Source: Odiellus spinosus (Eukaryota; Arthropoda; Arachnida; Opiliones; Phalangiidae). Taken from it: a stretch of DNA of 64,000 nucleotides. The DNA lies in contig OY987234.1 in the NCBI GenBank assembly GCA_963920705.1, positions 22,525,794-22,589,793 on the forward strand, given 5' to 3'. The first letter of the stretch is position 1; every line of letters starts with the position of its first letter. The position numbers and the translations under genes are program-made. This document shows positions 18,351-62,051 of the stretch, in pieces. The notes under the pieces were generated by a model. It ran no database searches, was not told where the DNA came from, and saw only the letters and a program-made list of their open reading frames with translations.

Positions 18351-18589
18351 TCTTTCTAACAACAAGTTTTGTTATTTATGGATAAATATAAGTATATTAT
18401 TCATTTTTCTAGGTTTAATTAGTCTTATTGAATGTTTAACCATACTGTTTAAATATTTGATTCTCTATCGTATATATTTTCATCCGTTTTTATTCTGATC
18501 TCAGAGGTCAAACCGTTTCAGAATAATTATAATTGCTATAAAAGTCATACAAACGTATACATTTTCATTGAAAATTAATTAGTTCATGT

Positions 18590-18932
18590 CAGAAGCCGAT
18601 GAAACCCTCCTTTGAAGTCTATTACTCCCGGGTCTTGTCTACCCCTCTCTGTATGGGTTATTCTCAAAAGGCGCGATTCGTACGCCTCCTAACGGTAGAT
18701 GTTTTCGGAGCGGGAGTTCGTCGAGCGAATATCTCTAGCAGCCTCGGAGTTCGTCCAAAAAACGTCGTCGTTTGTGGAGAGAGAGAATTTCCAATTTTCC
18801 GTAGACAGGGGGGGGGGGGGTGAAGTAGGACCCCTTCTAACTCGTAAAATTGTGAATTTTACCCGTACAGAGAGGAGCGCTATATGGAACATTGGAGTAG
18901 TAGACTTCAAAGGAGGGTTTCATCGGCTTCTG
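18590..18932 (+). mobile_element. MITE family A, copy 1
   Basis: Bounded by CAGAAGCCGATGAAACCCTC and its complement, with inverted ends of about 32 bp, then an internal inverted CCTCTCTGTATGGGT. The 7-bp flanks TTCATGT are identical (18583-18589, 18933-18939). A run of 11 G lies in the interior where other copies have 6-8. Open frames of 74-95 codons on both strands are by-products of its composition and recur in every copy. Non-autonomous; its transposase is not in the window. Confidence 0.96.
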
Positions 18933-19020
18933 TTCATGTTTACAACTATTTACCATTTTTTTCTATTGATTCAGCCAATGATATAGTCGCAATTCCCCAT
19001 AGATAAACTTTCAAAATGAT

Positions 19021-19202
19021 GTACGTGTACATGATCGAAAAAGGGGGCTATTTGATCGAAGCCCAAAGGGTCCATTTAATCGACCACAAAATGTGATCCA
19101 CAAAATTTAAAAATAATAATTAAGGGTGGTTTGATCTTAATAAACATTTTTCCGGATCAACTGATACGTCGATCAAATAATTTTTCGATCAGAGGTCCGT
19201 AC
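19021..19202. mobile_element. Imperfect inverted-repeat element with GATCGAAAAA arms
   Basis: The ends GTACGTGTACATGATCGAAA and the complement of TTTTTCGATCAGAGGTCCGT share about 16 positions. A second internal pair TTTGATCG / CGATCAAA lies inside. No flank duplication was found. Tentative MITE, followed by dispersed motif copy at 19252-19313. Confidence 0.4.
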
Positions 19203-20004
19203 TAGCCCAAAACTCCACCCACGACGGGCTACTTCCAATTTAACGCGACTATCGAAGGCATACGCGGAATAATACACAATGTTAATGGTCATAGAAATAA
19301 AAGTAGTTTTCGATAACTTCTATTGATATCAAAATCTGTTAGTGATGGGTAATCAGAATAAGTTTGAACAAAGCAATACCCTGCCTTTTATCATCGTTTG
19401 GTTTTTTAAAGAGAGTATGAAGTATATTAAAACGAAAAATGGGAAATTTGTTTACCTAACTCTAAAATGGGGATACCTAATCATTTTCAAGTATACATAA
19501 TGGGTTGCCTAATCGCGTAATTAGTGTACAGATTTTACGGTAGTGATTAACGCCTCGCTTGTTTACGTAATAAAATATAGGGAATTTCAATACTTCATCC
19601 TCCCTTTAGTTTAAAAATAAAAGAGAAGTTATCCTTGAAAGTGTTGAAGTTTCAAACCGATTTTAACTATAATCTCGTCCATGAGCAGTTTTCAGAACTA
19701 CTTTTAATTCTAAAGAAATTTAACACGGTGTATTTATTCGCCCCAGCTGTTGATAGTTTGCAAAGTTATTCGTGAAAATGATGGGTGTATTGTAAAAGGG
19801 GCGCTAGCAATTTATCATTCTTTACAATCGTACCCGTCAAATCGATTCTCAAGTTTTTTTCTTCTGCTATATATTGGGAGGGTTGCGTTTTCAAATAAAA
19901 ATTCTTATAGCAAATACTGACCGATAGAAATATTTTTTTATATCTATACCTACCTATATAATACTGCTGGGAATGATTGTTCGACTTCTCAGACAATTTC
20001 ACTA
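19203..20004. other. Gene-free stretch with dispersed motif and a TTAA-element end
   Basis: The 60-bp dispersed motif (ATACGCGGAATAATACACAA ... AAAAGTAGTT) lies at 19252-19313. TTCATCCTCCCTTTAG near 19596 resembles the right end of TTAA-type elements. An 83-codon minus-strand frame (19766-20017) has no recognisable domain. Confidence 0.45.
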
Positions 20005-20786
20005 AAGCCTCGTTCATACATAGGCCTAAATGCGTTTCGTTGCGGTTCGATTTCTATAACTGGTTATGAAACCAACGTGAGAAATCAGTTCGTGTTGGTT
20101 CGGGAAGCAGCTTGGCCAAGTCGCTTCGGTTCAATCCGCTTTGAAAATAACGAGGCGGGGAGACAAATTTGCTGATAAATCTTAAAATAACGCGATTAAA
20201 ATTATACTTTCTGTCAAAAATTATTAACCAACGATTTACAAACACGATTTACTAATTAGTTTGAACAGAAGCCGATGAAACCCTCCTTTGAAGTCTACAA
20301 CTCCAATGTTCCATATAGCGCTCCTCTCTGTATGGGTAAAATTCCCAATTTTACGAGTTAGAAGGGGTCCTACTTCATCCCCCCTGTCTACGAAAAATTG
20401 GAAATTCTCTCTCTCCACAAACGACGACGTTTTTTGGACGAACTCCGAGGCTGCTAGAGATATTCGCTCAACGAACTCCCGCTCCGAAAACATCTACCGT
20501 TAGGAGGCGTACGAATCGCGCCTTTTGAGAATTACCCATACAGAGAAGGGTAGACAAGACCAGGGAGTAATAGACTTCAAAGGAGGGTTTCATCGGCTTC
20601 TGGTTTGAGATAACTATTTAAAAATTTTAAATTCTGGGCATTTTTTAAAACGACGCTAAGCCTTGGCTTAGGTCGAACCGGGGCGAACGGCCGCGAACCG
20701 TCTTGTCAGCGTGTGAACCAGGGAAAATGGAAAACGCTTCGAACTGGTTTTGGAACCGATTTTGCCTTCAAGTGTGAACGAGGCTT
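20005..20786. mobile_element. Host inverted-repeat element interrupted by MITE A copy 2
   Basis: Outer ends AAGCCTCGTTCATAC and GTGTGAACGAGGCTT are complementary over about 15 bp with one mismatch. Subtracting the nested MITE and its duplication leaves about 438 bp. Both halves are unusually rich in GGTTCG and AACCG words. Target duplication is unclear. A similar theme (CGTTCACGC ... GTGTGAACG) occurs in the 111-bp element at 58357. Confidence 0.55.
20266..20602 (-). mobile_element. MITE family A, copy 2 (nested)
   Basis: Complete copy in the opposite orientation to copy 1, ends CAGAAGCC / GGCTTCTG. Flanking 7-mers are GTTTGAA (20259-20265) and GTTTGAG (20603-20609), six of seven matching. 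It splits the element spanning 20005-20786, so it is the younger of the two. Confidence 0.95.
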
Positions 20787-21149
20787 AAGAAAAGTCTGTC
20801 AGGAACTGATGGATAAACCTCTTACTTCTCTCGGAGGTCGATCATCTTTGGTAACAACCGGTTGTAATGAAAGAAATTAACCATTTCATCGACTAGTCTT
20901 AGAAGTAAATACGCCCTTCTTATGGAATCAAAAGGTTATAGCTCAAAAACTTACTCGAACCCTTCTCGTACAAGAATGAATTATTTAAGCCTCGTTATAA
21001 GTATTTAATATTTTCTCATAAGTATGACAGTATAAGGACAATCGTCTCATTTCGTTCGTCTTGAAGTCGATTTAAACCGTTTTTCTAAATCCATTTCTCG
21101 TACCTGCTTCGGGAACCAATTTCAATTTACGTTTAACAAAAGTTAATTT
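20787..21149. other. Gene-free spacer
   Basis: No gene or repeat recognised between the nested element and the 30-bp array. Confidence 0.5.
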
Positions 21150-21530
21150 AAAAAAGGTTACTAAAAGTTGCAATTTTTTGGTAATTTGGTTACTAAAAGT
21201 TGCAATTTTTTTTTTTTGTAATTTGGTTACTAAAAGTTGCAATTTTTTGTAATTTGGTTACTAAAAGTTGCAATTTTTTTTTTTGTAATTTGGTTACTAA
21301 AAGTTGCAATTTTTTGTAATTTGGTTACTAAAAGTTGCAATTTTTGTAATTTGGTTACTAAAAGTTGCAATTTTTGTAATTTGGTTACTAAAAGTTGCAA
21401 TTTTTGTAATTTGGTTACTAAAAGTTGCTTCTTATGTAATTTGATTACCAAAAGTTGCTTCTTATGTAATTTGATTACCAAAAGTTACTAGTTTTCAAAT
21501 TTGGTTACTAAAAGTTAGTATTTTCATAAA
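21150..21530 (+). repeat. 30-31-bp minisatellite (about 12 units)
   Basis: The unit is GTAATTTGGTTACTAAAAGT plus TGCAATTTTT, with T-tract length varying from 5 to 11 between units. Later units change to TTGCTTCTTATGTAATTTGA. Open frames on both strands arise from the period and are not genes. Confidence 0.95.
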
Positions 21531-22533: not shown

Positions 22534-22604
22534 CATAGCCTCCTCGATCACGCGCTTCGGCTATAGCGCGAGCGCAGCCGAAGCGCGTGATCGAGGAGGC
22601 TATG
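22534..22604. mobile_element. 71-bp perfect hairpin element with 7-bp target duplication
   Basis: Arms at 22534-22562 and 22576-22604 are perfect complements over 29 bp (start CATAGCCTCCTCGATCACGC, end GAGGAGGCTATG) around a 13-nt loop. The 7-bp flanks CAAAACC are identical (22527-22533 and 22605-22611). Ends are CA...TG as in MITE families A-C. It is GC-rich, unlike its surroundings. Best read as a very short MITE; the stem could also extrude as a cruciform. Confidence 0.88.
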
Positions 22605-22611
22605 CAAAACC

Positions 22612-23274: not shown

Positions 23275-23683
23275 TTCCCTGTAAATGATACCAGAAGCCG
23301 ATGAAACCCTCCTTTGAAGTCTACTACTCTAATGTTCCATATAGCGCGCCTCTCTGTATGGGTAAAATTCCCAATTTTACGAGTTAGAAGGGGTCCTACT
23401 TCATCCCCCCTGTCTACGGAAAAGTGGAAATTCTCTCTCTCCACAAACGACGACGTTTTTTTGACGAACTCCGAGGCTGCTAGAGATATTCGCTCGACGA
23501 ACTCCCGCTCCGAAAATATCTACCGTTAGGAGGCGTACGAATCGCGCTTTTTGAAACTAACCCATACAGAGAGGGGTAGACAAGACCCGGGAGTAATAGA
23601 CTTCAAAGGAGGGTTTCATCGGCTTCTGATGATACCGATACGTCATGAAATCCCCATTTCCATGATATATCGCTGGAATTTAC
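23275..23683. repeat. Foldback repeat H, copy 1, split by MITE A
   Basis: The left piece CCTGTAAATGATAC (to 23291) and the right piece CGATACGTCATGAAATCCCC ... TTCCATGATATATCGCTGG (from 23636) match the uninterrupted copy at 26522-26586 once MITE A and one 7-mer are removed. H itself folds: ATCATGGAA against TTCCATGAT. Confidence 0.85.
23292..23628 (-). mobile_element. MITE family A, copy 3
   Basis: 337 bp, ends CAGAAGCC / GGCTTCTG, flanked by perfect 7-bp duplications ATGATAC (23285-23291, 23629-23635). The related sequence at 26528-26534 has a single ATGATAC and no insert, which confirms both the element boundaries and the duplication length. Confidence 0.97.
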
Positions 23684-23785
23684 ATGAGGCTTAGTGTTAT
23701 TATAAAACGCAATTTCTATTTCAAAAAACCAAGATGAAATACACTTATTTCAGATGTCTTTATGAAGTTATCAAGATAACCGTGT

Positions 23786-24066: not shown

Positions 24067-24073
24067 ACCGTGT

Positions 24074-24681
24074 CTTATTTTATTTCTTTTAATAAGTGTA
24101 GGTAGGATACCTGTCGCGAAATTTCTCTTGGCAAAATTAATTTTAGATTTGCACGCTTTCTAACTCAACCCCCGGTTTTTTTTCTCGCCGTAGGCCTTGG
24201 TCTATTAATTAAATGAAATGGTCATTGAATTATTAAACACTTCTTTTTTCCCGCGTTCTTTAATTAATTAGATTACGCTTCATCACGTACGCTTAGCTTT
24301 TTAATTAACTTCTGAAGAAAATAACGAATGTTTATCTACGCGATATTAACTTTCTTTAACATTTTAATTAAGATAAAGTCATACGAGACTGTCAGTTTTT
24401 TTACGTAGTTTCCAAATGAAAGAAGAACCCAAACTCCCTTTTGTTCTTCCTCAGTAGCGGAATTTTTATTTTTAATATATTAAATCCTCGTAATTGGCTA
24501 AAATTTGCGTAATATTTAATTTATAAATATAATTTTAACGATCTCGACGAAAATACAATTCAAATATCATATTTCAAATATTTAGTTTCACCAAAAATAT
24601 TTTAATTAAAAATTATTAGATTTCATTTTCCCTTTAATACTATTTTTTGAGCTAAATAATAACCTAGCCTTATTTACTTAA
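24074..24681. other. Gene-free AT-rich spacer
   Basis: No gene, array or additional element recognised; ends at the TTAA target site of the next element (24678-24681). Confidence 0.5.
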
Positions 24682-25114
24682 AGGGAGAATGCAACCTAAT
24701 TACAAGTGATTTTTTATTGATTCCTTATCGTTTAAATAGGCCTAATCCACTACTGAAAATATTTACAAACAAATATTAAACTAGAAATAAATTTAAAACT
24801 TACCCTGAAAATAGGCTTAGTGGGATTCATGGAGGTCCTGTTTTCCTCGCGTGTAAGGTCTAGCGACCAATCGCGCGCGACGTAAGTCTCGTGGAGACTC
24901 GCGTGAACGACGGGCCTTTGCTCATTGGTCGCTAGACCTTACACGGACGCGATTCAGGACCTCCACGAGTCCCGCTAAGCCTATTTTCAGGGTAAGTTTT
25001 AAATTTATTTCTAGTTTAATATATGTGTTGTAAACTTTTTATCGATGGATTAGGCCTATTTAAACGATAAGGAATCGATAAAAAAATCACTTGTAATTAG
25101 GTTGCATTCTCCCT
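24682..25114. mobile_element. TTAA-type foldback MITE (family D), copy 1
   Basis: Starts AGGGAGAATGCAACCTAATT and ends with its complement, flanked by TTAA on both sides (24678-24681, 25115-25118). Almost the whole element is palindromic: arms contain AATAGGCCTAATCCAC, AACTAGAAATAAATTT and TTACCCTGAAAATAGGCTTA. The central part is GC-rich with TGTAAGGTCTAGCGACCAAT and its complement. TTAA targets are known for piggyBac and Kolobok; superfamily here is not decided. Confidence 0.92.
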
Positions 25115-25118
25115 TTAA

Positions 25119-25663
25119 ATATCTTGCTTACAAAATAGTTTTTCCAACTCTAAATTTTGTTGATATATTACCCAACACTGTCTTAATCAACAAACTAGGA
25201 TTATACGTATATTTAATTATAAAACAACTTAAAATATCAGTGGAACCATTTAATTTTAAATATATTATTTATTATAGTTCTGAAAGGCAAAATATAGCTT
25301 TATATACTGAACTCTAAAACTGATACGAACTATAATTTATTTTATTATACAATTTATTGCCGGGAAATATAAATTTTATTTAAAAAAATTAAAGTTTTTA
25401 GATTGCTGATCACGTTTCCTGAACTAATTTTCAGGGTTTAAGAATATATAGACACTAAATCAATATTTTTTTAACCCCGGATATTTGAATACTAGCGAAA
25501 GTTGATGCGGATTAATACACGATGTTAAATCTCGTAGCTGTTCTTGAAACACGCGTTTAATAATTTATACACCTTTATAAAGGTTTGACTATCATGATAT
25601 AAATAAAATTTAAAGAATAACCCAAAACGTAATTCGTGTTCGTACGTCCATAACCTTTTCCAC
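25119..25663. other. Gene-free stretch with dispersed motif copy
   Basis: The dispersed motif (ACTAGCGAAAGTTGATGCGG ATTAATACACGATG) lies at about 25486-25545. A 71-codon frame starting near 25102 begins inside the TTAA element and is AT-driven, so not a gene. Confidence 0.5.
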
Positions 25664-25760: not shown

Positions 25761-26521
25761 GATTTAAGCTTAGAAATCTTGCATTTTGTATGTCCCTTTA
25801 TTTTTATCGAGTTTTTATTATTGGAGGGTAATATCCTATTACTTGATAAATATTAATTATTAATCAGAGTAATTGTTGCAAAACCATTTTTTAATTGGCA
25901 TTTACTTATATAATATTTTATACAATTCAAAATGTGTTTGATAAAAAAACTTTTAAAATTATTTTGCGCAAATTGAATACGGGGCGTTTGGGTTGTTCTT
26001 TTATTTTAAATTTTTTTAACTTTCACGTTAGATAATAAGTTCTGGTTTAAAATATTACGTGTCGATTTGAATCCCGTGATTTTCGTAGGGTAGGATAAAG
26101 GAGGGAATAAACTCACTCGTGTTCCGCCTTCGTGGCGTTTAATATTAATTGAAATATCTCTTGAAATATTTCTAATTAAAAAATATCTTATTTGAGCTGT
26201 TTTTTTTTTTTTCTTGGGCGAATGAAAAACTTACTAGGGTTCATTTTCGCTCTCTTATAGTAATTTATCACGCGTCCGAGTTCGTTTGAGTTCATTTTTA
26301 AAGTCATTTAGAAAGTGTGATCGAAGTAGTTCTGACAGGTCGAGATTTTAAAGTTTTTTTTATTTATTTTGCAACCCAATTTTTTAAAAATACTTGTAAT
26401 TATTTTCATTGATGATTTCCTTCATAATTATCCGTGTAAGATGAAGGTCAGCTAACCTTTAAACTTGCTTATTGAACAGGACTCTGATTTTTTTGCCCCT
26501 TATATTAGCTTGTTCCCAGAT
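25761..26521. other. Gene-free stretch
   Basis: AT-rich, with an 11-12-base T run near 26200. No gene or repeat recognised. Confidence 0.5.
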
Positions 26522-26586
26522 TTACCTGTAAATGATACCGATACATCATGGAAACCCCACTTCCATGATATATCGCTGGAATATAC
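26522..26586. repeat. Foldback repeat H, copy 2 (uninterrupted)
   Basis: CCTGTAAATGATACCGATAC followed by ATCATGGAAACCCCACTTCCATGAT read in two halves forms a stem of about 13 bp with a 7-nt loop, then ATATCGCTGGAATATAC, which pairs imperfectly with the left edge. It is the empty-site counterpart for MITE A copy 3. Confidence 0.8.
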
Positions 26587-27170
26587 GGGTTAATTAGTGC
26601 ATGAGCCATTAAACAACTTAGTTAATTGAACAAGGCTCTGATTTGTTTACCCCTTGTTCGGAAATATTCCAGTAAAATATAATCTTGTAGCCAGGTCCTG
26701 AATGTCGAAACTTCCTGGTTTTTGACAAATTTAAAGAGAGTTCGTAAATCAGCGTAGTTTATTGCCTGAAATACTCTAAATTATTTTCTTGTTTGATCGT
26801 ATTTTTGTGGAATTTTATTTCAGCTCGCTTATGACGTAATAATTCCATATTTGGTAACCGAGCTTCAGAGTAAATCTTAACTAGATTTATGTTATTTACC
26901 AAAGCATTTCGAAGAGGTTTTTCTTCTTGCTTTTACGCGAAGCTCCTCTAGTTTTCTTTTTCTTCTTCTTGAAATTGAAAGTTACTTGTTTTTAATTCAC
27001 TTAAGTTTTTTATTATTTAATATAAACTTCCAGCCCTTTAAATATTTAATTCCATTTTAAAGTTCTAGTGTTTGAAGTTTTCCGAAATATTTATTTAACC
27101 TTCTTCGAGATTAAATAATAAATAATAACCAATTTGCGTCATATTAAGGGGATAATGAAAACTACTAATA
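26587..27170. other. Gene-free stretch
   Basis: No gene, array or element recognised before the TA-flanked foldback element. Confidence 0.5.
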
Positions 27171-27320
27171 CCCTCTTCAGACGAGGCGTAATTAGCCGTG
27201 GTTTAATCAGATTTAACCGAGGTTTACATAGCCTTTTCAGTTCAATAAACCTCGGTTAATTTTGAATAAACTATGGTTAAATCTGATTAAACCGGCTAGT
27301 TACGCCTCGTCTGAAAAGGG
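27171..27320. mobile_element. TA-flanked foldback MITE (family F), copy 1
   Basis: Ends CCCTCTTCAGACGAGGCGTA and the complement of CGCCTCGTCTGAAAAGGG, flanked by TA. The arms continue with GGTTTAATCAGATTTAACCG and its complement, leaving a short loop. TA target duplication suits Tc1/mariner-type elements, which is inference. Confidence 0.8.
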
Positions 27321-27412
27321 TATAACGTGTTATTTTTATTGTTTTAAGAAGGTTAATGAAACTTACCTAAGGTTTCGCGTTAATTTACAAAGGCTTAGCG
27401 GGCTGATATTAG

Positions 27413-27490: not shown

Positions 27491-28762
27491 GGATTATCAT
27501 GAATCATTAAACATCTTAGTTAATTGAACAGGGCTATGATTCGTTACCCCCTTAGATTAACGCGTTCTTATATCGGCGTAAATGAAATGTTGATTGTAAA
27601 AATATTCAGGGGGAGCATATTTTAACGTAAGGAATCAGAAAAAATACTTAATTTAAACTGATAATATCCATTTATGGCAGTATGGGTAACCTGGTAATTA
27701 CAGCTCTATCGTTACTTTCCCATTTCACCCAAAAAAATAGCCCAAAATAATTTTTGTCTGGCTACTATTTTTCCCACATTTCCGCAATTCGTTTGAGCGT
27801 CTGATGTTTGTATTCTTAGTGATCTGGTTTTCATAAACTCTCGCTTAAGATAGCGGAAATATTCGCACCCCATCTCTCCAGTTGGAACCAAAAATACTAA
27901 TTTCATTTGGATTCTCCATTGATTCGGTAAACGGTGTTGATGTAATTCTAATCTACGAATAGGGAGCCTTACTTCCGCTAATCTGTGGCAACAGCTTTCG
28001 GTAATTGACGCGTGGTATAATTTTATTTTTTTAATTTATTTTTCCACTCTCTTTTTAACGCCCGCGCGACGCTACTGTTATTATAATCGCTAGATTTTTC
28101 CTTCCCACGAGGAACGGAGGATGATTTTTCATCTCGCGAGTCCGTCGTTAATCCCCTACAAAGGATTAACCGCGAGTTCCGCGGAGCGGAAGCAATTAGG
28201 CTTAGAAGCGATTGAGTGAAAAGCTAGAAAGATCTTCGCTTACTCCCTGTTTTCACTCCATTGTTTCTATTCGATTAAACTGACTGTATAGAGTTATAGG
28301 GAAATTTGCGAATGTATTTTTATAACCACGAATTTTAATATATACGACATAACTCGAGCCAGTTTGCAAACTTGGAATATTCCAGTAACGGGACTGAGTT
28401 TGGTGTGTTTACTGTTAAAGGGTTGATGAACGCAGTTTTAAATAGAGTTTGAAATTGAGAAACAATTTCGCGCCAAAATTTTGGTGCTTTAGCCATTATG
28501 AGTTAAAAGGTGATTAAAGCGTTGCTGTAGTTCAATTGTGGCCGTTTCGAACAGTAGGAAAGAGTTAGTTTACTACTAAAATTAGTAGTAAAACTTCAAG
28601 AATTGTCTTTTATGAATTTGCTAGTTCTTACTTTAGCTTCCACTGTTTGCCGTTAGGGGCGCTTATGAATGTCATGTTTTGTTATTCCTCTTTACCCCTT
28701 TAGGAAGTTGTACAGTAATTAGTCCTTGGTACAATTTGTTGGAAAGTTTAAGTGTCCCTTAA
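27491..28762. other. Gene-free stretch with a short hairpin
   Basis: A 64-codon minus frame (27712-27906) has no recognisable domain. CG-richer sequence at 28060-28200 (CGCCCGCGCGACGC, CCGCGAGTTCCGCGGAGCGG) could be regulatory but has no other support. A perfect hairpin TTTACTACTAA / TTAGTAGTAAA lies near 28567-28592. Confidence 0.4.
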
Positions 28763-29196
28763 AGGGAGAATGCAACCTAATTACAAGTGATTTTTTTATC
28801 GATTCCTTGTCGTTTAAATAGGCCTAATCCACCGATAAAAAGTTTACAATACAAATATTAAACTAGAAATAAATTTAAAACTTACCCTGAAAAGAGGCTT
28901 AGCGGGATTGATGGAGATCCTGAATCGCGTCCGTGTAAGGTCTAGCGACCAATGAGCGAAGGCCTGTCGTTCACGCGAGATCTCCACGAGACTTACGTCG
29001 CGCGCGATTGGTCGCTAGACCTTACACGCGAGGAAATCAGGAGCTCCATGAATCCCGCTAAGCCTATTTTCAGGGTAAGTTTTAAATTTATTTCTAGTTT
29101 AATATTTGTTTGTAAATTTTTTAAATAGTGGATTAGGTCTATTTAAACAATAAGGAATCGATAAAAAATCACTTGTTGTTAGGTTGCATCCTCCCT
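28763..29196. mobile_element. TTAA-type foldback MITE (family D), copy 2
   Basis: AGGGAGAATGCAACCTAATT to its complement, between TTAA at 28759-28762 and 29197-29200. 434 bp, the same palindromic design as the copy at 24682, with the asymmetrical centre (CAATGAGCGAAGG versus CAATCGCGCGCGAC) in the opposite order, so the two copies are inserted in opposite orientations. Confidence 0.93.
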
Positions 29197-29200
29197 TTAA

Positions 29201-30349
29201 AGAAAGTATTGAGAGAACGTGGGAAAAAAGCCTAACATGTCTGCAATCCAAAATAATATATTTATTAGTTATATTTTCAATTTAGATTCATTCTTAGTTG
29301 CTTGGTTTGGGTTACGTGGTATATTATAGACGTATACGCGTAATTTATCTTTATACACTCTTATGGCGTCATATCATCCGCGCTCTTCGTCCCTTTGCCG
29401 TCTCCGAGGCGACTCCCGAACTCGTTAGTCGCTTCGCCTGTAGTTTTCGTTTGTTCTTCACTTTCTCGCTTGTCCAAAATTTTCGAATCTCGTTAAAATT
29501 CACTCTTGTACTACTCGTTTCGCGGTGGTTATTCAGTACTCGCGTTTTAACTTCGCAAAGATAACTTTCAACTCTCTCTCTCTCTCTCTCTCTCTCTTTC
29601 GAGATCCCTGTATTATTTAGCCTTTAACCTTATTCTTGGATCGACTTGGAAGTTTTAATCCCATTGGGTTTTTATAAAATTGATAGCGTTAACGAGATAT
29701 ACTTAGACAGTTTCGTAGCAACCGACGGTTCGAATATAAATTATTTATAGGACTTGTTTGAACTCCTTATTACGGGGAACACGCATCTCGTTATAACCGA
29801 AACTTTTCAGTATCTGTAGCTTACGAAAGGATGAACTGGAATTTTTTTTTTTTTTTTATAATTCTAAGAACGCGATAGCATTCGTAGTTATTAACCCATG
29901 ATCATGAATTTCCCGCAATTATTATCCAATCAGATTGCTCTCTATTTTCCCATTGAAATATATAACTAGGGCCGGACGTTTCTATGACATTTTACCATTG
30001 GACGAGATTGTCCAGAAAGTGTAAAATAATTTAAATAATTAATTTAAGATATAATCTACATAGAAATAGTCAAATAATGAAATATTTTCGTAAAGGTGTA
30101 CTTTTACTAGTGAGGCGTGTTAAACTTTTGGGAAAAGTTCCATTTTTTGACTCTTTTTATTACTTTAACTCGCGTTACGGGGTTTTATCTTGTTCCGCCT
30201 GCATGCCTGCATTGCACCCTGCTCATTTTCCATATCCTCGAAATCCCAGCTTTTATATTTCCCTTCAAGGTACGGTGGTGCCTTTACAAAGCGCTACCTT
30301 TGAACTTCACCTATAAATATTTTTGAACTTTATTTAACTCTAAACCTAT
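29201..30349. other. Gene-free stretch with microsatellite and GC-richer patch
   Basis: 29330-29570 is moderately CG-rich with an 88-codon frame starting at TTG and lacking a domain. A (CT)13 run lies at 29572-29597 and a T run at 29842-29857. Overlapping frames of 69-79 codons at 30077-30326 are not recognisable. Confidence 0.4.
29572..29597 (+). repeat. (CT)n microsatellite
   Basis: Thirteen perfect CT steps; read on the minus strand it is a GAGA tract next to the GC-richer patch. Confidence 0.95.
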
Positions 30350-31415
30350 TAGGGTTGCCACAGGTCAGGGAAACGGGGAAAAGTCAGGGAATTTGAAAAT
30401 GAAACATAATAGTCAGCGAAAAGTCAGGGAATTTGAAAATGAACCAAAAAAGTCAGGGAAAAATCAGGGAATTTGAAAATGAACCCAAAAAGTCAGGGAA
30501 AAGTCAGGGAATTTGAAAATGAACCAAAAAAGTCAGGGAAAAGTCAGGGAATTTGAAAATGAACCAAAAAAGTCAGGGAAAAGTCAGGGAATTTGAAAAT
30601 GAACCAAAAAAGTCAGGGAAAAGTCATGGAATTTAAAAATGAACCAAAAATTAACCAAAAAAGTCAGGGAATTTGAAAATTAACCAAAAAAGTCAGGGAA
30701 TTTGAAAATTAACCAAAAAAGTCAGGGAATTTGAAAATTAAACAAAAAAGTCAGGGAATTTGAAAATTAACCAAAAAAGTCAGGGAATTTGAAAATTAAC
30801 CAAAAAAGTCAGGGAATTTGAAAATTAAACAAAAAAGTCAGGGAATTTGAAAATTAACCAAAAAAGTCAGGGAATTTGAAAATTAACCAAAAAAGTCAGG
30901 GAATTTGAAAATTAAACAAAAAAGTCAGGGAATTTGAAAATTAACCAAAAAAGTCAGGGAATTTGAAAATTAACCAAAAAAGTCAGGGAATTTGAAAATT
31001 AACCAAAAAAGTCAGGGAATTTGAAAATTAAACAAAAAAGTCAGGGAATTTGAAAATTAACCAAAAAAGTCAGGGAATTTGAAAATTAACCAAAAAAGTC
31101 AGGGAATTTGAAAATTAAACAAAAAAGTCAGGGAATTTGAAAATTAACCAAAAAAGTCAGGGAATTTGAAAATGAACCAAAAAAGTCAGGGAATTTGAAA
31201 ATGAACCAAAAAAGTCAGGGAATTTGAAAATGAACCAAAAAAGTCAGGGAATTTGAAAATGAACCAAAAAAGTCAGGGAATTTGAAAATGAACCAAAAAA
31301 GTCAGGGAATTTGAAAATGAACCAAAAAAGTCAGGGAATTTGAAAATGAACCAAAAAAGTCAGGGAATTTGAAAATGAACCAAAAAAGTCAGGGAATTTT
31401 AAAATATTTTGAAAA
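30350..31415 (+). mobile_element. gtcaggg transposon with expanded 29-bp array
   Basis: The left end TAGGGTTGCCACAGGTCAGG opens the element. First come about six 40-bp units (gtcagggaaaagtcagggaa plus tttgaaaatgaacc). Then follow about 25 units of 29 bp (gtcagggaatttgaaaatta plus accaaaaaa). Units with TTAACC and TTAAAC alternate mostly as cc-cc-ac, an 87-bp higher-order repeat. The last eight or so units carry TGAACC. Neither the unique tail nor a right end is present; similarity stops after one TTTTAAAATATTTT unit. Confidence 0.93.
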
Positions 31416-34561: not shown

Positions 34562-34898
34562 CAGAAGCCGATGAAACCCTCCTTTGAAGTCTACTACTCT
34601 AATGTTCCATATAGCGCTCTTCTCTGTATGGGTAAAATTCCCAATTTTACGAGATCGGAGGGGTCCTACTTCATACCCCCTGTCTACGGAAAATTGGAAA
34701 TTCTCTCTCTCCACAAACGACGACGTTTTTTTGACGAACTCCGAGGCTGCTAGAGATATTCGCTCGACGAACTCCCGCTCCGAAAACATCTACCGTTAGG
34801 AGGCGTACGAATCGCGCCTTTTGAGAATAACCCATACAGAGAGGGGTAGACAAGACCCGGGAGTAATAGACTTCAAAGGAGGGTTTCATCGGCTTCTG
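34562..34898 (-). mobile_element. MITE family A, copy 4
   Basis: 337 bp, ends CAGAAGCC / GGCTTCTG, perfect 7-bp duplications ACATAAC at 34555-34561 and 34899-34905. Internal sequence nearly identical to copies 3 and 6. Confidence 0.97.
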
Positions 34899-37189: not shown

Positions 37190-37607
37190 CAGAGGTATAT
37201 AATAACCCCCTTCGGGGGGAAGTATGAAAGGTAGGCAAAATCGACGAACAACGAGTGCCCGGCGTAAATCGCGGCGGATCGACACGCCGCTTTACTCCCA
37301 AAAAATAGTTACACCATTTTGAACCTCACTAAATTTTCCCTACGCGCGCTTCCGGAACTCGCGAGCCGAAGTCAACCTTCGACTCCATTTTAACAGACAG
37401 CCTGACTCCCGAGACAGGAAGTTCTAAACGCAAATCGAGCCGTCTTGTTTATACAAAGACCATTTACTAGAGTAGCGACATTGAGAAGTCCAGCGCGAGC
37501 TAGTGGCCTAGATAGTCAGCAGCGGGCTCTCGTTGTTCGTGATTTTTAGCATTGGTAGTATAGGGGCTTTCATACTTCCCCCCGAAGGGGGTTATTATAT
37601 ACCTCTG
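37190..37607 (+). mobile_element. MITE family B, copy 1
   Basis: 418 bp with inverted ends of about 40 bp: CAGAGGTATATAATAACCCC, then CTTCGGGGGGAAGTATGAAA, which contains its own CCCCCTTCGGGGG hairpin. Flanking 7-mers CTACTAC and TTATTAT match at only four of seven, the three differences all C/T. The right flank is an ATT microsatellite. The interior is GC-rich. Confidence 0.9.
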
Positions 37608-39677: not shown

Positions 39678-40031
39678 AATAGTCCTGGTCGATTTGCCGG
39701 AAATGGGCGCTTGTCTCGTAGCCGCACCGCCATCTTTTTATAGTAACAGGCTGCCAGACTATTTTTAATTTTATTTCCCACAAACCAAATTCAAGTTACA
39801 ATTATCACCACCCGTGAAAAAGATGTTAAGTCACGGGTACTAGCCAGCCCGTAACTTGGTTAGCTATGTCATCATAAATGCAAATTCAAGTTGTTAGTCT
39901 GTCGATCTTCACTAGAACAGATCACTCGAGCGGACGAAAATTTCACGCTACAAAAAGATGGCGGACATTCACGTGACAAATTTTCGTGAGCGTCTCTAGA
40001 CTTCCGGTTTTTTAAATCGACCAGGACTATT
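39678..40031 (+). mobile_element. MITE family E, copy 1
   Basis: 354 bp with inverted ends AATAGTCCTGGTCGATTT (18 bp). Just inside, CCGCCATCTTTTT at one end and AAAAAGATGGCGG at the other form a second inverted pair. An internal hairpin CCCGTG / CACGGG lies near 39812-39837. TA lies within the ends (AATAGTCC ... GGACTATT), so a TA target is possible but not shown. The second copy is at 61764 in opposite orientation. Confidence 0.88.
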
Positions 40032-42780: not shown

Positions 42781-43116
42781 CAGAAGCCGATGAAACCCTC
42801 CTTTGAAGTCTATTACTCCCGGGTCTTGTCTACCCCTCTCTGTATGGGTTATTCTCAAAAGGCGCGATTCGTACGCCTCCTAACGGTAGATATTTTCGGA
42901 GCGGGAGTTCGTCGAGCGAATATCTCTAGCAGCCTTGTAGTTCGTCAAAAAACGTCGTCGTTTGTGGCGAGAGAGAATTTCCAATTTTCCGTAGACAGGG
43001 GGGATGAAGTAGGACCCCTTCTAACTCGTAAAATTATGAATTTTACCCATACAGAGAGGAACGCTATATGGAACATTGGAGTAGTATACTTCAAAGGAGG
43101 GTTTCATCGGCTTCTG
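42781..43116 (+). mobile_element. MITE family A, copy 5
   Basis: 336 bp in the same orientation as copy 1. Flanking 7-mers CTTTTAC (42774-42780) and GTTTTAC (43117-43123) differ at the first base. A 112-codon frame spans the whole element and is repeat-derived. Confidence 0.95.
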
Positions 43117-44904: not shown

Positions 44905-45293
44905 CAGAGGTATATAATAACCCCCTTCGGGGGAAGTATGAAAGCCCCTATACTACCAATGCTAAAAATCACGAACAACAAGAGCCCGCTGCTGACCATC
45001 TAGGCCACTAGCTCGCGCTGGACTTCTCAATGTCGCTACTCTATAAACAAGACGGCTCGATTTGTGCTTAGAGGAGTCAGGCTGTCTGTTAAAATGGAGT
45101 CGACGGTTGACTTCCGCTCGCGAGTTCTGGAAGTGCGCGTAGGGAAAATTTAGTGAGGTTCAAAATGGTGTAACTATTTTTTGGGAGTAAAGCGGTGTGT
45201 CGATCCGCCGCGATTTACGCCGGGCACTTGTTGTTCGTCGATTTTTGCCTACCTTTCATACTTCCCCCCGAAGGGGGTTATTATATACCTCTG
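44905..45293 (-). mobile_element. MITE family B, copy 2
   Basis: 389 bp, reversed relative to the copy at 37190. Ends CAGAGGTATATAATAACCCC and complement, perfect 7-bp duplications GTTATAT at 44898-44904 and 45294-45300. Shorter than copy 1 because of internal deletions. Confidence 0.95.
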
Positions 45294-47973: not shown

Positions 47974-48312
47974 CAGAAGCCGATGAAACCCTCCTTTGAA
48001 GTCTACTACTCTATTGTTCCATATAGCGCTCCTCTCTGTATGGGTAAAATTCCCAATTTTACGAGTTAGAAGGGGTCCTACTTCATCCCCCCCCTGTCTA
48101 CGGAAAATTGGAAATTCTCTCTCTCCACAAACGACGACGTTTTTTTGACGAACTCCGAGGCTGCTAGAGATATTCGCTCGACGAACTCCCGCTCCGAAAA
48201 TATCTACCGTTAGGAGGCGTACGAATCGCGCTTTTTGAAACTAACCCATACAGAGAGGGGTAGACAAAACCCGGGAGTAATAGACTTCAAAGGAGGGTTT
48301 CATCGGCTTCTG
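47974..48312 (-). mobile_element. MITE family A, copy 6
   Basis: 339 bp, ends CAGAAGCC / GGCTTCTG, perfect 7-bp duplications GTCCTAC at 47967-47973 and 48313-48319. Shares private differences with copy 3 (CGCTTTTTGAAACTAACCC), so these two are sister copies. Confidence 0.97.
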
Positions 48313-51013: not shown

Positions 51014-51350
51014 CAGAAGCCGATGAAACCCTCCTTTGAAGTCTACTACTCCAATGTTCAATATAGCGCTCCTCTCTGTATGGGTAAAATTCCCAATTTT
51101 ACGAGTTAGAAGGGGTCCTACTTCATCCCCCCTGTCTACGGAAAATTGGAAATTCTCTCTCTCCACAAACGACGACGTTTTTTGGACGAACTCCGAGGCT
51201 GCTAGAGATATTCGCTCGACGAGCTCCCACTCCGAAAACATCTACCGTTAGGAGGCGTACGAATCGCGCCTTTTGAGAATAACCCATACAGAGAGGGGTA
51301 GACAAGACCCGGGAGTAATAGACTTCAAAGGAGGGTTTCATCGGCTTCTG
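51014..51350 (-). mobile_element. MITE family A, copy 7
   Basis: 337 bp, ends CAGAAGCC / GGCTTCTG, perfect 7-bp duplications TTTAAAC at 51007-51013 and 51351-51357. Confidence 0.97.
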
Positions 51351-51357
51351 TTTAAAC

Positions 51358-53260
51358 CTTAAAATACAAAGTGCACTGTCTGTAGATTACGCGTGAAATT
51401 TGACCTTCGATAAATCCAGACTTTTTTATACATTTTCAAAATTGCCTCTCTCTTTTCTACATTTGAAATAATTGAAGCTTTTTCCCGGAAGGGAATGACG
51501 TCGGGGAATGAATCTTGGCTTTTAAAATTTCCCAAATTAAATTCTCGCTATTTTTACGTCGTAAAAGGGAATTCCGAGTCCCAAATGATTCGCTCCGCTT
51601 TCATTTTTAATTCGCTATATATGTTTCGAAACTAAATTTCAACAACTTCTATAAGAATCCAGTTTAAATTTAGATTTAAATGGCTAGTCGCGTTTTTTTT
51701 CGGCAATTTATTTTACCCAGTATGATATTATCATAAGCATAAGTACCATAAGTAAATTAACACCCATAAGTAACCAAATATCAACATCTGAAGTCCTGGT
51801 TTAGTTAAAATGCAACCTTAAACTCGTGTTTCTCCAGATGATTTAATTAAAAAGCAGACATATCCAAAAAATGCCCCACCTTTAAATTAATATTACTCTA
51901 ATTTATAATATCATATTTGAAAATATTGCGCGATTTTAAAGATAAGAAGAAAAAATTCTATTCAATCTCAAATACTCTAGTTTTCGATCGCCGCTAGTTA
52001 AAAATTAAATATGAAACTTGTAAACATGATAGCGTAATTTGCGTTTGAAAATTAATATTGATTAGATTAATATGATAGGCGAGTACGTAATGTATTAACC
52101 CATATTTCCAAACCAGCGTATTATTAAAATTGGGCGTGTTTGGGTCTCGATCTAAATATTGAAGAGAATAAGAAAAAAAAAAAAATATATGTTAAGAAAA
52201 ATAATCATTTTAAAAGTCTTGTCAAATCGTCTGAAAAAAAATCTAAAAGATTAAAATCTTTGAAAATATTATTTTTGATTAAAATAAACGAGCTATTCGT
52301 TCGGAGTCTGATTTTTCAAATTTACGTTTTATTGATTATAAAAGGAGCCTGTCGAAAAACTCGACAGCTGAAAGAATTGACCATTTGTCTTACGACTTAG
52401 CTTAGAATATTTTACGAATAAAAACATTCTGATATTTAATCATATTTTTAATTCTAAACCCAATTACGAATTTTGCAGATACTTGAAAACTTACAAATAT
52501 TGCGAATTATTACCTTTTTTTTCCATTTCATTTTTTATCGCGTTTTAGAACTAAAACTTTCTTGATGTCTTCTTTCTTAAACTATAAATCTAAAAACGTG
52601 TAAGTTGTCCTTTATTTTGACGAAATAAGGCTCTATATGCTAAAATAAATGATGTATCGGTTTTTTGTGTGTTCCAAAAGGGTACGCGTTAAGTTTAAGT
52701 TCTCGTACAGACGATGGAAATGAAATCATTTAATTCATTTAACTAGTATTCTATTTAACGAATTCCCCCCAATTTTACTGTAACAAAATTATTTCTTAAT
52801 ACACTTTAGACCCCCACACAAAATTTCAGTCCTTTCGATTTGAAATATTATATTTTTTTTATAATTTTAAGGAGTAGAAAACTTGTTTTCTGGATACGTT
52901 CCTATATTGATTTGTTTTTGCCGTATCTTTTGATCTGAAAATCAATTTTTTTCGGGGGATTTAGCCATAATATAACGCATCACTAATGCGGACGAATTTA
53001 ACTCGCTACAGACAAAAAGGTAATAAAATAAAATCTCCTTGAAGCGGTTCATAAATTCATGGCCGATTTAGGATCAAGAAATAAGCCAAAAATCGTCGAA
53101 AATATCATAAATTTTACTCTGGAAATGGACACTTAGTCTAACAGAGCTTGATGTTTCTAATAAACGAGCTAATAAATCTTGGAAAAAAACGTTCGAAATA
53201 AATAGCCAAACATCATCTCCGTGAATAGAAATATTAGCTTTTCTATTCTATTGAATTATT
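51358..53260. other. Gene-free AT-rich stretch
   Basis: An 86-codon lysine-rich frame at 52140-52400 reflects A runs. No gene, array or hairpin recognised. Confidence 0.45.
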
Positions 53261-53276
53261 TAAAGGGATACTGAAA

Positions 53277-54334
53277 GAAATATATGACCCTTGAACTTGA
53301 AGGACTATTGCCATTGAAAGAAATATGATATGACCCTTGAACTTGAAGGACCATTGCCATTGTAAGAAATATGATATGACCCTTGAACTTGAAGGACCAT
53401 TGCCATTGAAAGAAATATGATATGACCCTTGAACTTGAAGGACCATTGTCCTTGAAAGAAATATGATATGACCCTTGAACTTGAAGGACCATTGCTATTG
53501 TAAGAAATATGATATGACCCTTGAACTTGAAGGACCATTGCCATTGTAAGAAATATGATATAACCCTTGAACTTGAAGGACCATTGCCATTGAAAGAAAT
53601 ATGATATGACCCTTGAACTTGAAGGACCATTGCTATTGTAAGAAATATGATATGACCCTTGAACTTGAAGGACTATTGCCATTGTAAGAAATATGATATG
53701 ACCCTTGAACTTGAAGGACCATTGCCATTGAAAGAAATATGATATGACCCTTGAACTTGAAGGACCATTGCCATTGAAATAAATATGATATGACCCTTGA
53801 ACTTGAAGGACCATTGCCATTGAAAGAAATATGATATGACCCTTGAACTTGAAGGACCATTGCCATTGAAAGAAATATGATATGACCCTTGAACTTGAAG
53901 GCCCATTGCCATTGAAAGAAATATGATATGACCCTTGAACTTGAAGGACTATTGCCATTGAAAGAAATATGATATGACCCTTGAACTTGAAGGCCCATTG
54001 CCATTGAAAGAAATATGATATGACCCTTGAACTTGAAGGACTATTGCCATTGAAAGAAATATGATATGACCCTTGAACTTGAAGGACCATTGCCATTGAA
54101 ATAAATATGATATGACCCTTGAACTTGAAGGACCATTGCCATTGAAAGAAATATGATATGACCCTTGAACTTGAAGGACCATTGCCATTGAAAGAAATAT
54201 GATATGACCCTTGAACTTGAAGGCCCATTGCCATTGAAAGAAATATGATATGACCCTTGAACTTGAAGGACTATTGCCATTGAAAGAAATATGATATGAC
54301 GCTTGAACTTGAAGGACTATTGCCAATTGGTACA
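53277..54334 (-). repeat. 46-bp satellite (23 units)
   Basis: The unit on the plus strand is GACCATTGCCATTGAAAGAA plus ATATGATATGACCCTTGAAC plus TTGAAG. Variants (CTATTG, CCCATTG, AAATAAAT, TTGTAAG) allow unit typing: the order AAT, ACC, ACC, GCC, ACT in units 11-15 recurs in units 18-22, a seven-unit (322-bp) offset. The unit has no stop in any minus-strand frame, so a 309-codon minus frame with a 46-residue period arises. I see no start context, splice site or domain and treat it as non-coding. The array begins 16 bp after a TTAAAGGGATACTG end. Confidence 0.96.
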
Positions 54335-55240
54335 CAGAGTTTATTGCCATTGGTTCACGCGATATTGAAGCAAAACGGGGTTTATTTTGTAGTCTTGCCT
54401 AGAATAATGTCACTGTTCCGCCATTTTCTCCTGTACCTTTGATAAGTATCATACCTAAAATGGTATCCCGCATCATCAGGTACGCACGTTTGTTGAAAAC
54501 ATTGTAGCGTCATTACTGATGATAATGATAGTTTCTAATAGTTTTGTTAAGCAATTCCAAGGCTTTAAAAATATACGTCCCTGGGAATAAATACGGAATA
54601 AACGTTTATATTCGCGACTATACTTTAATGATAGTGAAATTAGTATTATTTCGTTTAGCGAAATTTAACAGGGATTTTCCCTGTATGAGGAAATTGAAAG
54701 TTAATTCCAATTCAAGTTGGAAACAACGCTGAAAATAAACAACCCCTTATGATTAATTAGTTAAAACTGAGACGAAGAGGGAGCCTAACTCTGTACGTAT
54801 TGTCAACTCGATATGAGAATTAATTCTAGTAAATGGTGATTATTTATATATAATAAACGTATTATTTACTATTTTAAATTGAACCTTTTAGAATAATTTC
54901 CCCGTATTTTCTTTCATTAATTTTGTCACGCGGACAAATACGTTTTTGATGATTAAATCTAATGATCAATCAAACTCCAATGAACGCCCTGGAAACGTGT
55001 CGTGTTAGTTTCTCTATACTTTTATCTACATAATTTTTTTCGTAGCGGACAAGTTACATTTTAAGATAAAAAAAAACTTGTTTTTAGATTGCATTCTCCC
55101 TTTAAGATGAAAAAAAAAAGTTTCGCGATAAAAACACTAAATATAATTAATTTTAGAACCTCATTAAATTTCGGGTGAATGGGGGGGAGGGGGCTAAAAG
55201 TGTCTGTCAATCGATCTTCTTGGGTAATTTCGGGTTTACC
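54335..55240. other. Gene-free stretch
   Basis: A TTAA-type right end (GATTGCATTCTCCCTTTAA) lies near 55078-55103. A short G-rich tract (GGGGGGGAGGGGG) lies near 55180. No supported gene. Confidence 0.45.
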
Positions 55241-57402: not shown

Positions 57403-57719
57403 CTTGATTTCTTGAGGTTTATCCAATCATTTTCGTCCATTCTACGAATGATACAGATATTTTTAGATGTGTCTAGAAATTTTGTGGTAATTCTTGTGAC
57501 ATAGTTCAGATTACGTGGGCATCCACAATTAAAAATAATAAAAAAAAAAAATCCAGAGGCCGTAACGCATAAAATAAATAATAGATTGGATGATTTACCA
57601 TTTGTTAATTTCTATTAAATGTGGGAATGGAGGCTACTTAAATTTAAGGACTAAATTTTAGCGGCTTAGAATTTTGGAGGTCAACTTTTTCTCATTTGTG
57701 CGGCCCTTAAGTTTTCTTC

Positions 57720-58115
57720 ACATTTGAGGCCCCTTTTTCAACACATTTGGAGGCCCGATTTGGCCCCCTTTTCTACACACATTTGAAGCCTCTTTTCTAT
57801 AAGTTTGGAGGCCCCCTTTGGTTCTTTTTTCTACACATGGAGGCCCCTTTTCTACACTCATTTGGAGGCCCCTTTTCTACACTCATTTGGAGGCCCCCTT
57901 TGGCTCCCTTTTCTACACACATTTGGAGGCCCCCTTTGGCTCCCTTTTCTACACACATTTGGAGGCCCCCTTTGGCTCCCTTTTCTACACACATTTGGAG
58001 GCCCCCTTTGGCTCCCTTTTCTACACACATTTGGAGGCCCCCTTTGGCTCCCTTTTCTACACCCATTTGGAGGCCCCCTTTGGCTCCCTTTTCTACACAT
58101 TTGGAGGGCCTTTTC
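57720..58115 (+). repeat. 36-bp satellite (about 9 units)
   Basis: The unit is ACACATTTGGAGGCCCCCTT plus TGGCTCCCTTTTCTAC, period 36 bp. Earlier units are shorter (24-27 bp) and lack TTTGGCTCC. Because the period is a multiple of three, several frames on both strands stay open for 80-123 codons with 12-residue repeats; these are not independent evidence for genes. Confidence 0.95.
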
Positions 58116-58356
58116 TAAACATCAAGTAGGCATTTGCCTACTGTTGGAGTTGCCACTGAAATGAAACGTATATGCGACGAAGGTTGGGCCCTAAAAGATC
58201 TAAACTTTGTTCAAGAGGAGTTTGCGAAATAGTAAAACCTTGAACCATGGTAATACGCAATTTTGAAACTCAAATATAATTATTTTCGTATCCACCTCCT
58301 TGAATTAATTATAATTTTACTTCCAAGTCACGATTTGCGAATGAAAAAGTAGTCTA
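58116..58356. other. Gene-free spacer
   Basis: No gene or repeat recognised between the satellite and the next inverted-repeat element. Confidence 0.5.
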
Positions 58357-58467
58357 CGTTCACGCTAGAGACTTTTAAAGAGCTTCGAACCGTAGTTGAT
58401 CGAAAAATTAAACCGTTTGACCTTTCCAAATTGGTTCAAAAGTGTTTCAAAGTATCTGGTGTGAACG
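58357..58467. mobile_element. 111-bp inverted-repeat element
   Basis: CGTTCACGCTAGA and TCTGGTGTGAACG are complementary at 11 of 13 positions. The interior has TTCGAACC and GGTTCAAAAG, similar in vocabulary to the element at 20005-20786. No clear target duplication. Confidence 0.5.
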
Positions 58468-59993: not shown

Positions 59994-60225
59994 CAGGGCT
60001 GCCACGGGTCAGGGAAAACAGGGAAAAGTCGGAGAATTTTAAGATATTTTAAAAAGTCGGGGAATTTAAAGATCTTTCAAGAAGCCAGGATTACCACGTA
60101 ATTGAAAATATTTATTTTTAAGTATTATAAAAAATAAAAGGTTAAAAATTGGGTTGTATTAGCCGAAATGGTCAGGGAAAATCATTGGAAAAGGTCAGGG
60201 AAAAACCTGGAAAAGTCAGGGAATT
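59994..60225 (+). mobile_element. gtcaggg transposon, internally deleted copy
   Basis: CAGGGCTGCCACGGGTCAGG at the left, two array units, a tail lacking the GATACGCCTGC segment, then GTCAGGGAAAAACCTGGAAA and GTCAGGGAATT. The right terminus is lost. Confidence 0.85.
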
Positions 60226-61099
60226 CAACCATTTAATTTAACCATTCCCCAAACAGACTTACCATTGCTTATCAAACCAAATAAGCTGTTCTCGTTATGC
60301 AAACTTAATTTTTAACTTATAAGGAAAGGCGGGTGATGAGAATCAGCTGCCGTTTAATTTACCTACCTAATATTGAAAGAAAATGGTCATTTAATTCTAT
60401 TTTGTGGACTCTTTTTTACCTTATAGTATCCTTACTCAAATGGCGGCGGTTTCTAACAATAGAAAAAACAGAAAAAACAAAGAGAATAAATAAAAATTAT
60501 GATTTTTCTTTCATCTTGAAATGTACAAAGTGCGCGAATGAGATTAAATAGTGATGGCAGGCTGAACTACGTCTCCTTTTTTGAAGGTTTGATCCCCTAC
60601 AACAACAAAACATTTTTTCCCAAGTTATTTCTCGGCCCCTTTTTATATTTTTGGAACAACTGCTAAGCCTTTTTTCGCTTCTTTCGCGCTGCGAAGTCTT
60701 TCGTACTGTAAAACTAAGCTAGCTTTATATCTAAATCATGCCTATAATACCCGCTGCCAAATCCAGGTGAAAATTATATCCGTTTTCCCGTCATACTTGT
60801 CACATTTCCATAAACTCGCGTCGACTACCGAAAAATCTATTTTTAGGCTTAGCCTAGAATATTGATTAAATCGTCGAGCTAGAATCGTCCAGTCAATAAT
60901 AAACCCCCTTAACCAAAATGCTCGGAATATTAAAGGTATGATGTCACCAATTTTGTCTGAGATCTAAATGATACGCTTACGTTTTTTGATGCCTATATTA
61001 TTAATTAAAAGTCAGTGGTTAATTAAAAAAAAGCTATTGATGGAACGAATATTATTCAACTAAATTCTATGATTGGTCAATTTTAAAATATGTATAATA
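60226..61099. other. Gene-free stretch
   Basis: A 72-codon frame at 60333-60551 starts ATG and ends CTKCANEIK, with no recognised domain. No repeats recognised. Confidence 0.4.
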
Positions 61100-61227
61100 C
61101 CCTTTCAGACGATGCATAATTAACCAAGGCTTAATCAGATTTAACTGAGGTTTATTGAACTAAGTAGGCTATGTAAACCTCGGTTAAATGTGATTAAACC
61201 GGCTAATTACGCTTCGTCCGAAGAAGG
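61100..61227. mobile_element. TA-flanked foldback MITE (family F), copy 2
   Basis: CCCTTTCAGACGATGCATAA and the complement of GCTTCGTCCGAAGAAGG, TA on both sides. The interior TTTAACTGAGGTTTATTGAA and GTAAACCTCGGTTAAATG fold back. Related to the copy at 27171. Confidence 0.78.
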
Positions 61228-61763
61228 TATAAGGGTAGAAAGAAATATTACAATTTCGTAGAGATTCGTGTAACACTTATCATCGAAGTATTATATACTT
61301 CTGTAATAACCAAATTAATTTCCGTTACCTCTTCATTAATTAAAGCGCGCACGATCGATTAACGATAAGCCTAATTTTCTTAATTTCCATCCCTATTAAA
61401 AAAAAAGGTTCAATTTTTTTGTTGGAGTCAATTTTTTTCCAATTTTTTAGCAATATAATCTATATCTTTGAGTTGGGATAGACTACTTTTATTTTCTATG
61501 TAAGTTAATATACGAATATCCCTCCGCCTTAGATTTGTACACGCTGACAAGTAAAATAAATTTAAATATATCCTATTTTTTACGCACGAAAAGTTCTCTG
61601 ACTCAAAATTTGAAAAAAAAAAAAAATGTATACCCTACAATGAACTAACTCCTTTTAGAGTTTGCTTCGATTAACTCCTAGAACATCTTTATAGGGAGGG
61701 GATCAGAAACTAATATTTAACACGAAATAACTCGATAGAATAGCTCTGCAGTATCCAGGAGCG
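61228..61763. other. Gene-free stretch with reversed dispersed motif
   Basis: ACTACTTTTATTTTCTATGT ... CCTCCGCCTTAGA at about 61482-61535 is a diverged minus-strand copy of the 60-bp dispersed motif. Confidence 0.45.
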
Positions 61764-62051
61764 AATAGTCCTGGTCGATTTCCAAAACCGGAAGTCTAGA
61801 GAACCTCGGGAAAATTTTGGCGGGGAAAACTTTTTGTCACGTGATCGTCCGCCATCTTTTTGTAGTGTGAAAATAGCTACAGACTAACCAACGCCTCCTA
61901 TACTTTATCATATAGGAAGCGTTGGACTAACAACTTGAATTTGGTTTGTGGGAAATAAAATTAGAAATAGTCTGGCAGCCTGTTACTACAAAAAGATGGC
62001 GGCGCGACTATGAGACAAGGGCCCATTTCCGGCAAATCGACCAGGACTATT
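61764..62051 (-). mobile_element. MITE family E, copy 2, carrying a nested 36-bp element
   Basis: Ends AATAGTCCTGGTCGATTT and complement; reversed relative to 39678. Subterminal GTCCGCCATCTTTTTGTAG and AAAAAGATGGCGGCG are again inverted. The central hairpin of copy 1 is missing, and a 36-bp hairpin with a 7-bp duplication is inserted at 61889. Confidence 0.88.
61889..61924. mobile_element. 36-bp micro-MITE with 7-bp target duplication
   Basis: CAACGCCTCCTATA and TATAGGAAGCGTTG pair at 13 of 14 positions around an 8-nt loop. GACTAAC flanks it on both sides (61882-61888, 61925-61931). The related MITE E copy at 39678, read on its minus strand, has CAGACTAACAACTTGAAT with one GACTAAC and no insert, which is the empty site. 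Ends are CA...TG as in families A-C. It is too short to be more than a pair of ends. Confidence 0.9.

Follow-up and report, generated by a model that had tools for sequence, protein, structure and literature searches.

The window, a stretch of 64,000 nucleotides from the harvestman Odiellus spinosus (assembly GCA_963920705.1, contig OY987234.1, positions 22,525,794 to 22,589,793 of the forward strand), contains 13 short inverted-repeat insertions that start with CA and end with TG. We consider it likely that families A, B, and C and the hairpin D among them are non-autonomous P-superfamily DNA transposons of the 7-bp duplicating form that resemble miniature inverted-repeat transposable elements (MITEs) and fall into several families with unrelated inverted ends, while for the 36-bp hairpin E an excision footprint is the likeliest reading. 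The assignment draws on the ends of the insertions, their flanking duplications, a preference among the duplicated sites, one paralogous empty site, and the footprint-like anatomy of E.

Insertions and flanking duplications

All 13 insertions of the original prediction were present at their places with CA starts and TG ends, and its count of target-site duplications (TSDs) also held: 7-bp duplications were kept in 12 of the 13, ten of them perfect and two (A2 and A5) agreeing at six of the seven positions. The flanks of B1, which sits within a TAN microsatellite, agreed at only 4/7 (7 bases read per side). The insertions are as follows.

A1, 18590..18932, minus strand, 343 bp, TSD TTCATGT
A2, 20266..20602, plus strand, 337 bp, TSD GTTTGAA/GTTTGAG (6/7)
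A3, 23292..23628, plus strand, 337 bp, TSD ATGATAC, paralogous empty site at 26501-26586
A4, 34562..34898, plus strand, 337 bp, TSD ACATAAC
A5, 42781..43116, minus strand, 336 bp, TSD CTTTTAC/GTTTTAC (6/7)
A6, 47974..48312, plus strand, 339 bp, TSD GTCCTAC
A7, 51014..51350, plus strand, 337 bp, TSD TTTAAAC
B1, 37190..37607, plus strand, 418 bp, 41-bp perfect inverted ends, flanks 4/7 in the TAN microsatellite
B2, 44905..45293, minus strand, 389 bp, TSD GTTATAT
C1, 23786..24066, plus strand, 281 bp, TSD ACCGTGT
C2, 49204..49484, plus strand, 281 bp, 99.6% identity to C1, TSD GTTTAAG
D, 22534..22604, no strand assigned, 71-bp hairpin with 29-nt arms and a 13-nt loop, TSD CAAAACC
E, 61889..61924, no strand assigned, 36-bp hairpin with 14-nt arms including one mismatch, TSD GACTAAC

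The seven copies of family A (336–343 bp) diverge pairwise by 1.2–4.2%, C1 and C2 by 0.4%, and B1 and B2 by about 10%. Up to the first mismatch, the inverted ends measure 41 bp in B1, 34 bp in C, 32 bp in A7, and 29 bp in D, and the arms of E reach 14 bp if one mismatch is included (13/14 matching). The GC content of the A–D inserts examined (A7 alone for family A) was 48–63%, compared to 33% in the window; that of E, at 42%, was lower than in the A–D inserts.

The ten perfect insertions emerged again from a blind scan for exact direct repeats of 5–10 bp flanking inverted repeats of 24–5000 bp (12-nt arms, ≤ 2 mismatches, low-complexity arms and duplications removed), for which 20 order-3 Markov sequences served as controls. 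Pairs starting with CA numbered 2, 1, 10, 0, 0, and 0 for duplications of 5, 6, 7, 8, 9, and 10 bp, against control means of 1.25, 0.35, 0.05, 0.05, 0.05, and 0, respectively, and the ten pairs at 7 bp were exactly the ten perfect insertions. When any starting dinucleotide was allowed, 32 pairs were observed at 7 bp vs. 6.9 expected, and most of the 22 without a CA start were AT-rich or came from tandem arrays. With less strict criteria for CA...TG pairs (spans of ≤ 2,500 bp, duplications allowed one mismatch), the 12 insertions were found again. Two additional pairs, one at 31437-31576 and one at 18792-20400 that falls inside the inverted A1/A2 copies, are unconvincing, and five control sequences yielded 0, 2, 0, 3, and 2 pairs. 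Neither search found a CA-ended insertion with an 8-bp duplication in the window.

Target-site preference and empty sites

Motif statistics were calculated for the 12 usable sites, with B1 left out. Position 2 of the duplicated heptamer is T in 8/12 and position 6 is A in 9/12, and agreement with GTnnnAC amounts to 29/48 positions, where 12.0 ± 2.9 are expected and none of 20,000 random and none of 20,000 local draws scored as high. The preference, which had not been part of the original prediction, is strong in family A; the five non-A sites lean the same way less strongly, matching by themselves at 10/20 positions (5.0 expected; 195 of 20,000 draws as high). Scored against GTTNAAC, the motif of the Drosophila element 1360, the 12 sites reached 39/72 vs. 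20.0 expected.

For each of the 13 sites, the flanks were joined with a single duplication and the window was searched for the resulting sequence. The flanks of A3 with one ATGATAC matched an uninterrupted paralogue at 26501-26586 (plus strand, 85% over 87 columns, E 4e−22), a paralogous empty site that confirms A3 as an insertion. The matches for A1, B1, and D in the window were weak or microsatellite, and those sites apart from A1, A3, B1, D, and E had none. The empty site of E lies in a second copy of the element that holds the hairpin:

About 61764-62051, inverted-repeat element with ends AATAGTCCTGGTCGATTT / AAATCGACCAGGACTATT, containing hairpin E
39678..40031, minus strand, paralogue of the E-holding element, second copy of the AATAGTCCTGGTCGATTT / AAATCGACCAGGACTATT element

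No clear duplication was seen around either copy of this element. In the paralogue, ACAGACTAACAACTTGAATTTG runs unbroken, without hairpin E, at 39881-39902 (minus strand), and agreement beside the single duplication extends for 3 nt on the left and 12 nt on the right. With no more than three matching bases on the left, where the paralogue has otherwise been rearranged, this empty site constitutes partial evidence.

Hairpin E as a probable excision footprint

On the 5′ strand, the cut of P transposase falls 17 nt into the element (PMC7776569). Table 1 of PMC2895639 (section 7) lists P-element end-joining products recovered from flies without Rad51 (spn-A), among which 63/66 isolates retained both full duplications with 4–44 nt between them and the remaining three lost part of a duplication; 33 of the 63 carried 30–44 nt, one of them exactly 36. 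Two perfect duplications enclose the 36 nt of hairpin E, whose arms agree over 14 nt and then diverge; its length falls within the published range and its anatomy is footprint-like. The order of parts described for the Drosophila footprints (a duplication, up to 17 nt per end, a short junction, and a duplication; PMC2895639) is also that of E, although those footprints have 8-bp duplications and come from Rad51-deficient flies in the laboratory, whereas E is a genomic relic.

E is therefore probably a scar of P-type excision rather than an element; this is the simpler reading, as 36 bp would leave an element little room for two regions of transposase binding. In such an event, a P-type transposase would have made its 5′-strand cuts about 17 nt in from the ends, and end joining after the cuts would have left both duplications, up to 17 nt per end, and a short junction. 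Independently of the duplication length, such a scar would also point to a P-type cut. Contrary to the original claim, E, as a probable footprint, should not be counted as a fifth mobile family. Hairpin D, with its 29-nt arms, exceeds the length of a simple footprint and may be either an aborted product of gap repair or an element of very small size. No second footprint-like CA...TG insertion of 14–60 bp with an exact duplication was found in the window.

Relations between the families

The families were compared by 22 local alignments, each against 300 dinucleotide shuffles. The two best inter-family alignments, A7 vs. E reversed (3/300 shuffles as high) and B1 vs. D reversed (7/300), do not look convincing after 22 tests, and the description of the families as unrelated in sequence was largely borne out, apart from a small shared motif, GCCTCCT. 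This heptamer lies at positions 5–11 of the ends in D as well as in E. It occurs ten times in the window on both strands, always inside these elements: each of the seven A copies has one, D has one in either arm, and E has one. It is absent from B and C. The 10-mer ACGCCTCCTA, which has GCCTCCT as its core and to which the score of A7 vs. E reversed is owed, has eight occurrences in the window, seven in the interior of A copies and one at the left end of E:

18682, 42873, 61891, plus strand, 10-mer ACGCCTCCTA
20501, 23527, 34797, 48211, 51249, minus strand, 10-mer ACGCCTCCTA

GCCTCCT is at most a weak lead to a possible common binding site. Homology between A and C was considered and rejected: shared 8- to 10-mers seemed raised relative to mononucleotide shuffles, but in the strict alignment of A7 vs. 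C1 55/300 and 50/300 dinucleotide shuffles scored as high. With looser scoring, one orientation gave 2/300 for a low-complexity alignment of 44 columns, which was discounted.

The ends of family A were also searched in public prokaryote and viral contigs, with one 21-mer match and 14 17-mer matches that look like chance (21 nt being the longest among the matches listed). The end patterns of B, C, and D and one tandem unit had no matches in viral contigs.

Probable assignment to the P superfamily

Duplications of 7 bp, a GT...AC target, and CA...TG ends together suggest a P element of the 1360/Galileo kind. In resequenced Drosophila, 1360 has a modal duplication of 7 bp (98.21% of 279 sites) and the motif GTTNAAC, while the P element itself has an 8-bp duplication and the motif GTCCGGAC (PMC3276498). 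The likeness to 1360 (hoppel), a P-superfamily element of Drosophila melanogaster, lies in duplication and target motif. Galileo shares with the insertions a 7-bp duplication (8 bp in three copies) and a similar target, GTANTAC or GTATTAC (PMC4168063), as well as several subfamilies and copies without transposase (PMC3573991); it differs in its inverted repeats, which vary and reach 1.2 kb and more, compared to 29–41 bp in A–D. The P-like zebrafish element Pdre2 resembles the insertions in its short (13-bp) inverted ends that start with CA and end with TG, and differs by an 8-bp duplication and a transposase-like gene (PMC10983969).

Under this assignment, the CA...TG ends would be brought together, and the element excised, by a P-type (THAP-domain) transposase whose gene lies elsewhere; the excised ends would be joined to a GTnnnAC-like target, and the 7-bp stagger would be filled in to give the duplication. 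The class of the transposase, its cutting chemistry, and the existence of separate autonomous partners are what we infer from the insertions. As regards the single transposase lineage originally proposed, a P-type class with 7-bp duplications is the best candidate and is strengthened by the target motif, whereas one enzyme that tolerates five kinds of ends is not needed.

Several observations weigh against the P-type assignment. The 7-bp P elements described in the sources cited (1360 and Galileo) all come from Drosophila, and the open-licence matches listed contained no clear case of P-superfamily MITEs with 7-bp duplications outside Drosophila, which is no proof of absence. As to E, its arms match for 14 nt (13/14) and not for 17, and the products in Table 1 of PMC2895639 arose with gap repair blocked by the lack of Rad51 and were shorter than 30 nt in 30/63 cases. 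No transposase was detected among the 10 of 37 open reading frames (ORFs) of the window that were scanned with Pfam, the other ORFs and the remaining six-frame sequence not having been scanned; the single match, FERM_C, was below the cut-off (E 0.11), and the other 27 ORFs comprise, on our reading, 22 of tandem-array or element sequence and 5 of neither. The sites of C1 (0/4) and D (1/4) fit the motif poorly, and complementarity between mirrored positions was not above chance (23/72 pairs; 2,668 of 10,000 random sets as high). Finally, the motif alone cannot separate P from hAT, because GT...AC has also been reported for hobo (GTNCGNAC).

Alternative explanations

MITEs of hAT type that produce 7-bp in place of 8-bp duplications are an unlikely alternative to P-type elements. 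CA...TG ends are common among hAT elements and the sites score 17/24 against NTNNNAN (8.0 expected); however, hAT elements are not known to leave extended parts of both ends behind when they excise, and E would stay unexplained. The hAT element hobo, which favours GTNCGNAC, makes an 8-bp duplication in 99.83% of 1,198 sites (PMC3276498), while the window holds no CA-ended 8-bp case, and a literature search for hAT elements with 7-bp duplications listed a single paper, on Galileo. Since the motif permits hAT, it is the duplication length alone, and perhaps E, that speaks against it.

One promiscuous transposase moving all five end types, the strong form of the original prediction, appears improbable. 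Duplication length, terminal dinucleotides, and target preference are indeed common to the families, and GCCTCCT (confined to A, D, and E) and ACGCCTCCTA (common to A and E) would be weak leads in its favour. A transposase lineage sets duplication length and target choice, while the end sequence is family-specific; the shared traits are thus traits of a lineage, and separate transposases of one superfamily would give the same picture. GCCTCCT is moreover absent from B and C, and the families lack a convincing alignment. Several P-type families with their own MITEs explain the data, so no enzyme of unusual tolerance is required.

Another superfamily that makes 7-bp duplications, be it undescribed or, e.g., a Mutator-type variant, has little probability. 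No transposase was seen in the ORFs scanned (10/37), and root-knot nematodes are reported to carry an inverted-repeat element of 936 bp, unclassified and flanked by 7-bp duplications (PMC3169594), but motif and ends fit P-type elements without a new assumption.

Dada, the other lineage named in the original prediction, makes duplications of 6–7 bp but was ruled out almost entirely on target and end structure: according to PMC3706591, terminal inverted repeats are missing from Dada-U6 and Dada-U1, and Dada elements with defined ends insert into small RNA genes, whereas A–D carry clear inverted ends of 29–41 bp and their targets vary, in a window with no Rfam match at the gathering threshold and no tRNA gene.

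Implications

If the P-type assignment is taken further, it is conceivable, with the balance slightly on the side of doubt, that within one genome a 7-bp-duplicating P lineage, perhaps extending beyond flies, gave rise to several MITE families whose ends are unrelated, and that the 36-bp palindrome is a fossil left in nature by an excision with a 17-nt stagger. Tiny palindromes between short direct repeats may then record past P-type excisions, and palindromic insertions of 30–44 bp between 7- or 8-bp repeats could be used to tally such events in any genome. The window also shows how far a classification of non-autonomous elements can go when it has nothing but scar shape, target motif, and duplication length to draw on. 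Should autonomous partners be found, the locus would offer a test of family-specific end recognition vs. conserved target choice in P-type transposases.

Other repeats in the window

Two copies of a near-palindromic element of roughly 440 bp, with ends AAAGGGAGAATGCAACC and arms of ~200 nt, lie at 24675-25121 and 28759-29200, and a third short inverted-repeat family is represented by related copies with a TAACCGAGGTTTA core at 27152-27339 and 61096-61233. Tandem arrays with the core GTCAGGGAATTT and several unit lengths (28–40 bp) are spread over the window (1413-2000, 5295-5574, 6301-6687, 10342-10583, and 30336-31555). Two further arrays, at 53144-54455 and 57694-58121, have units of 46 bp and 36 bp and contain long open frames in several frames, which are probably not genes.

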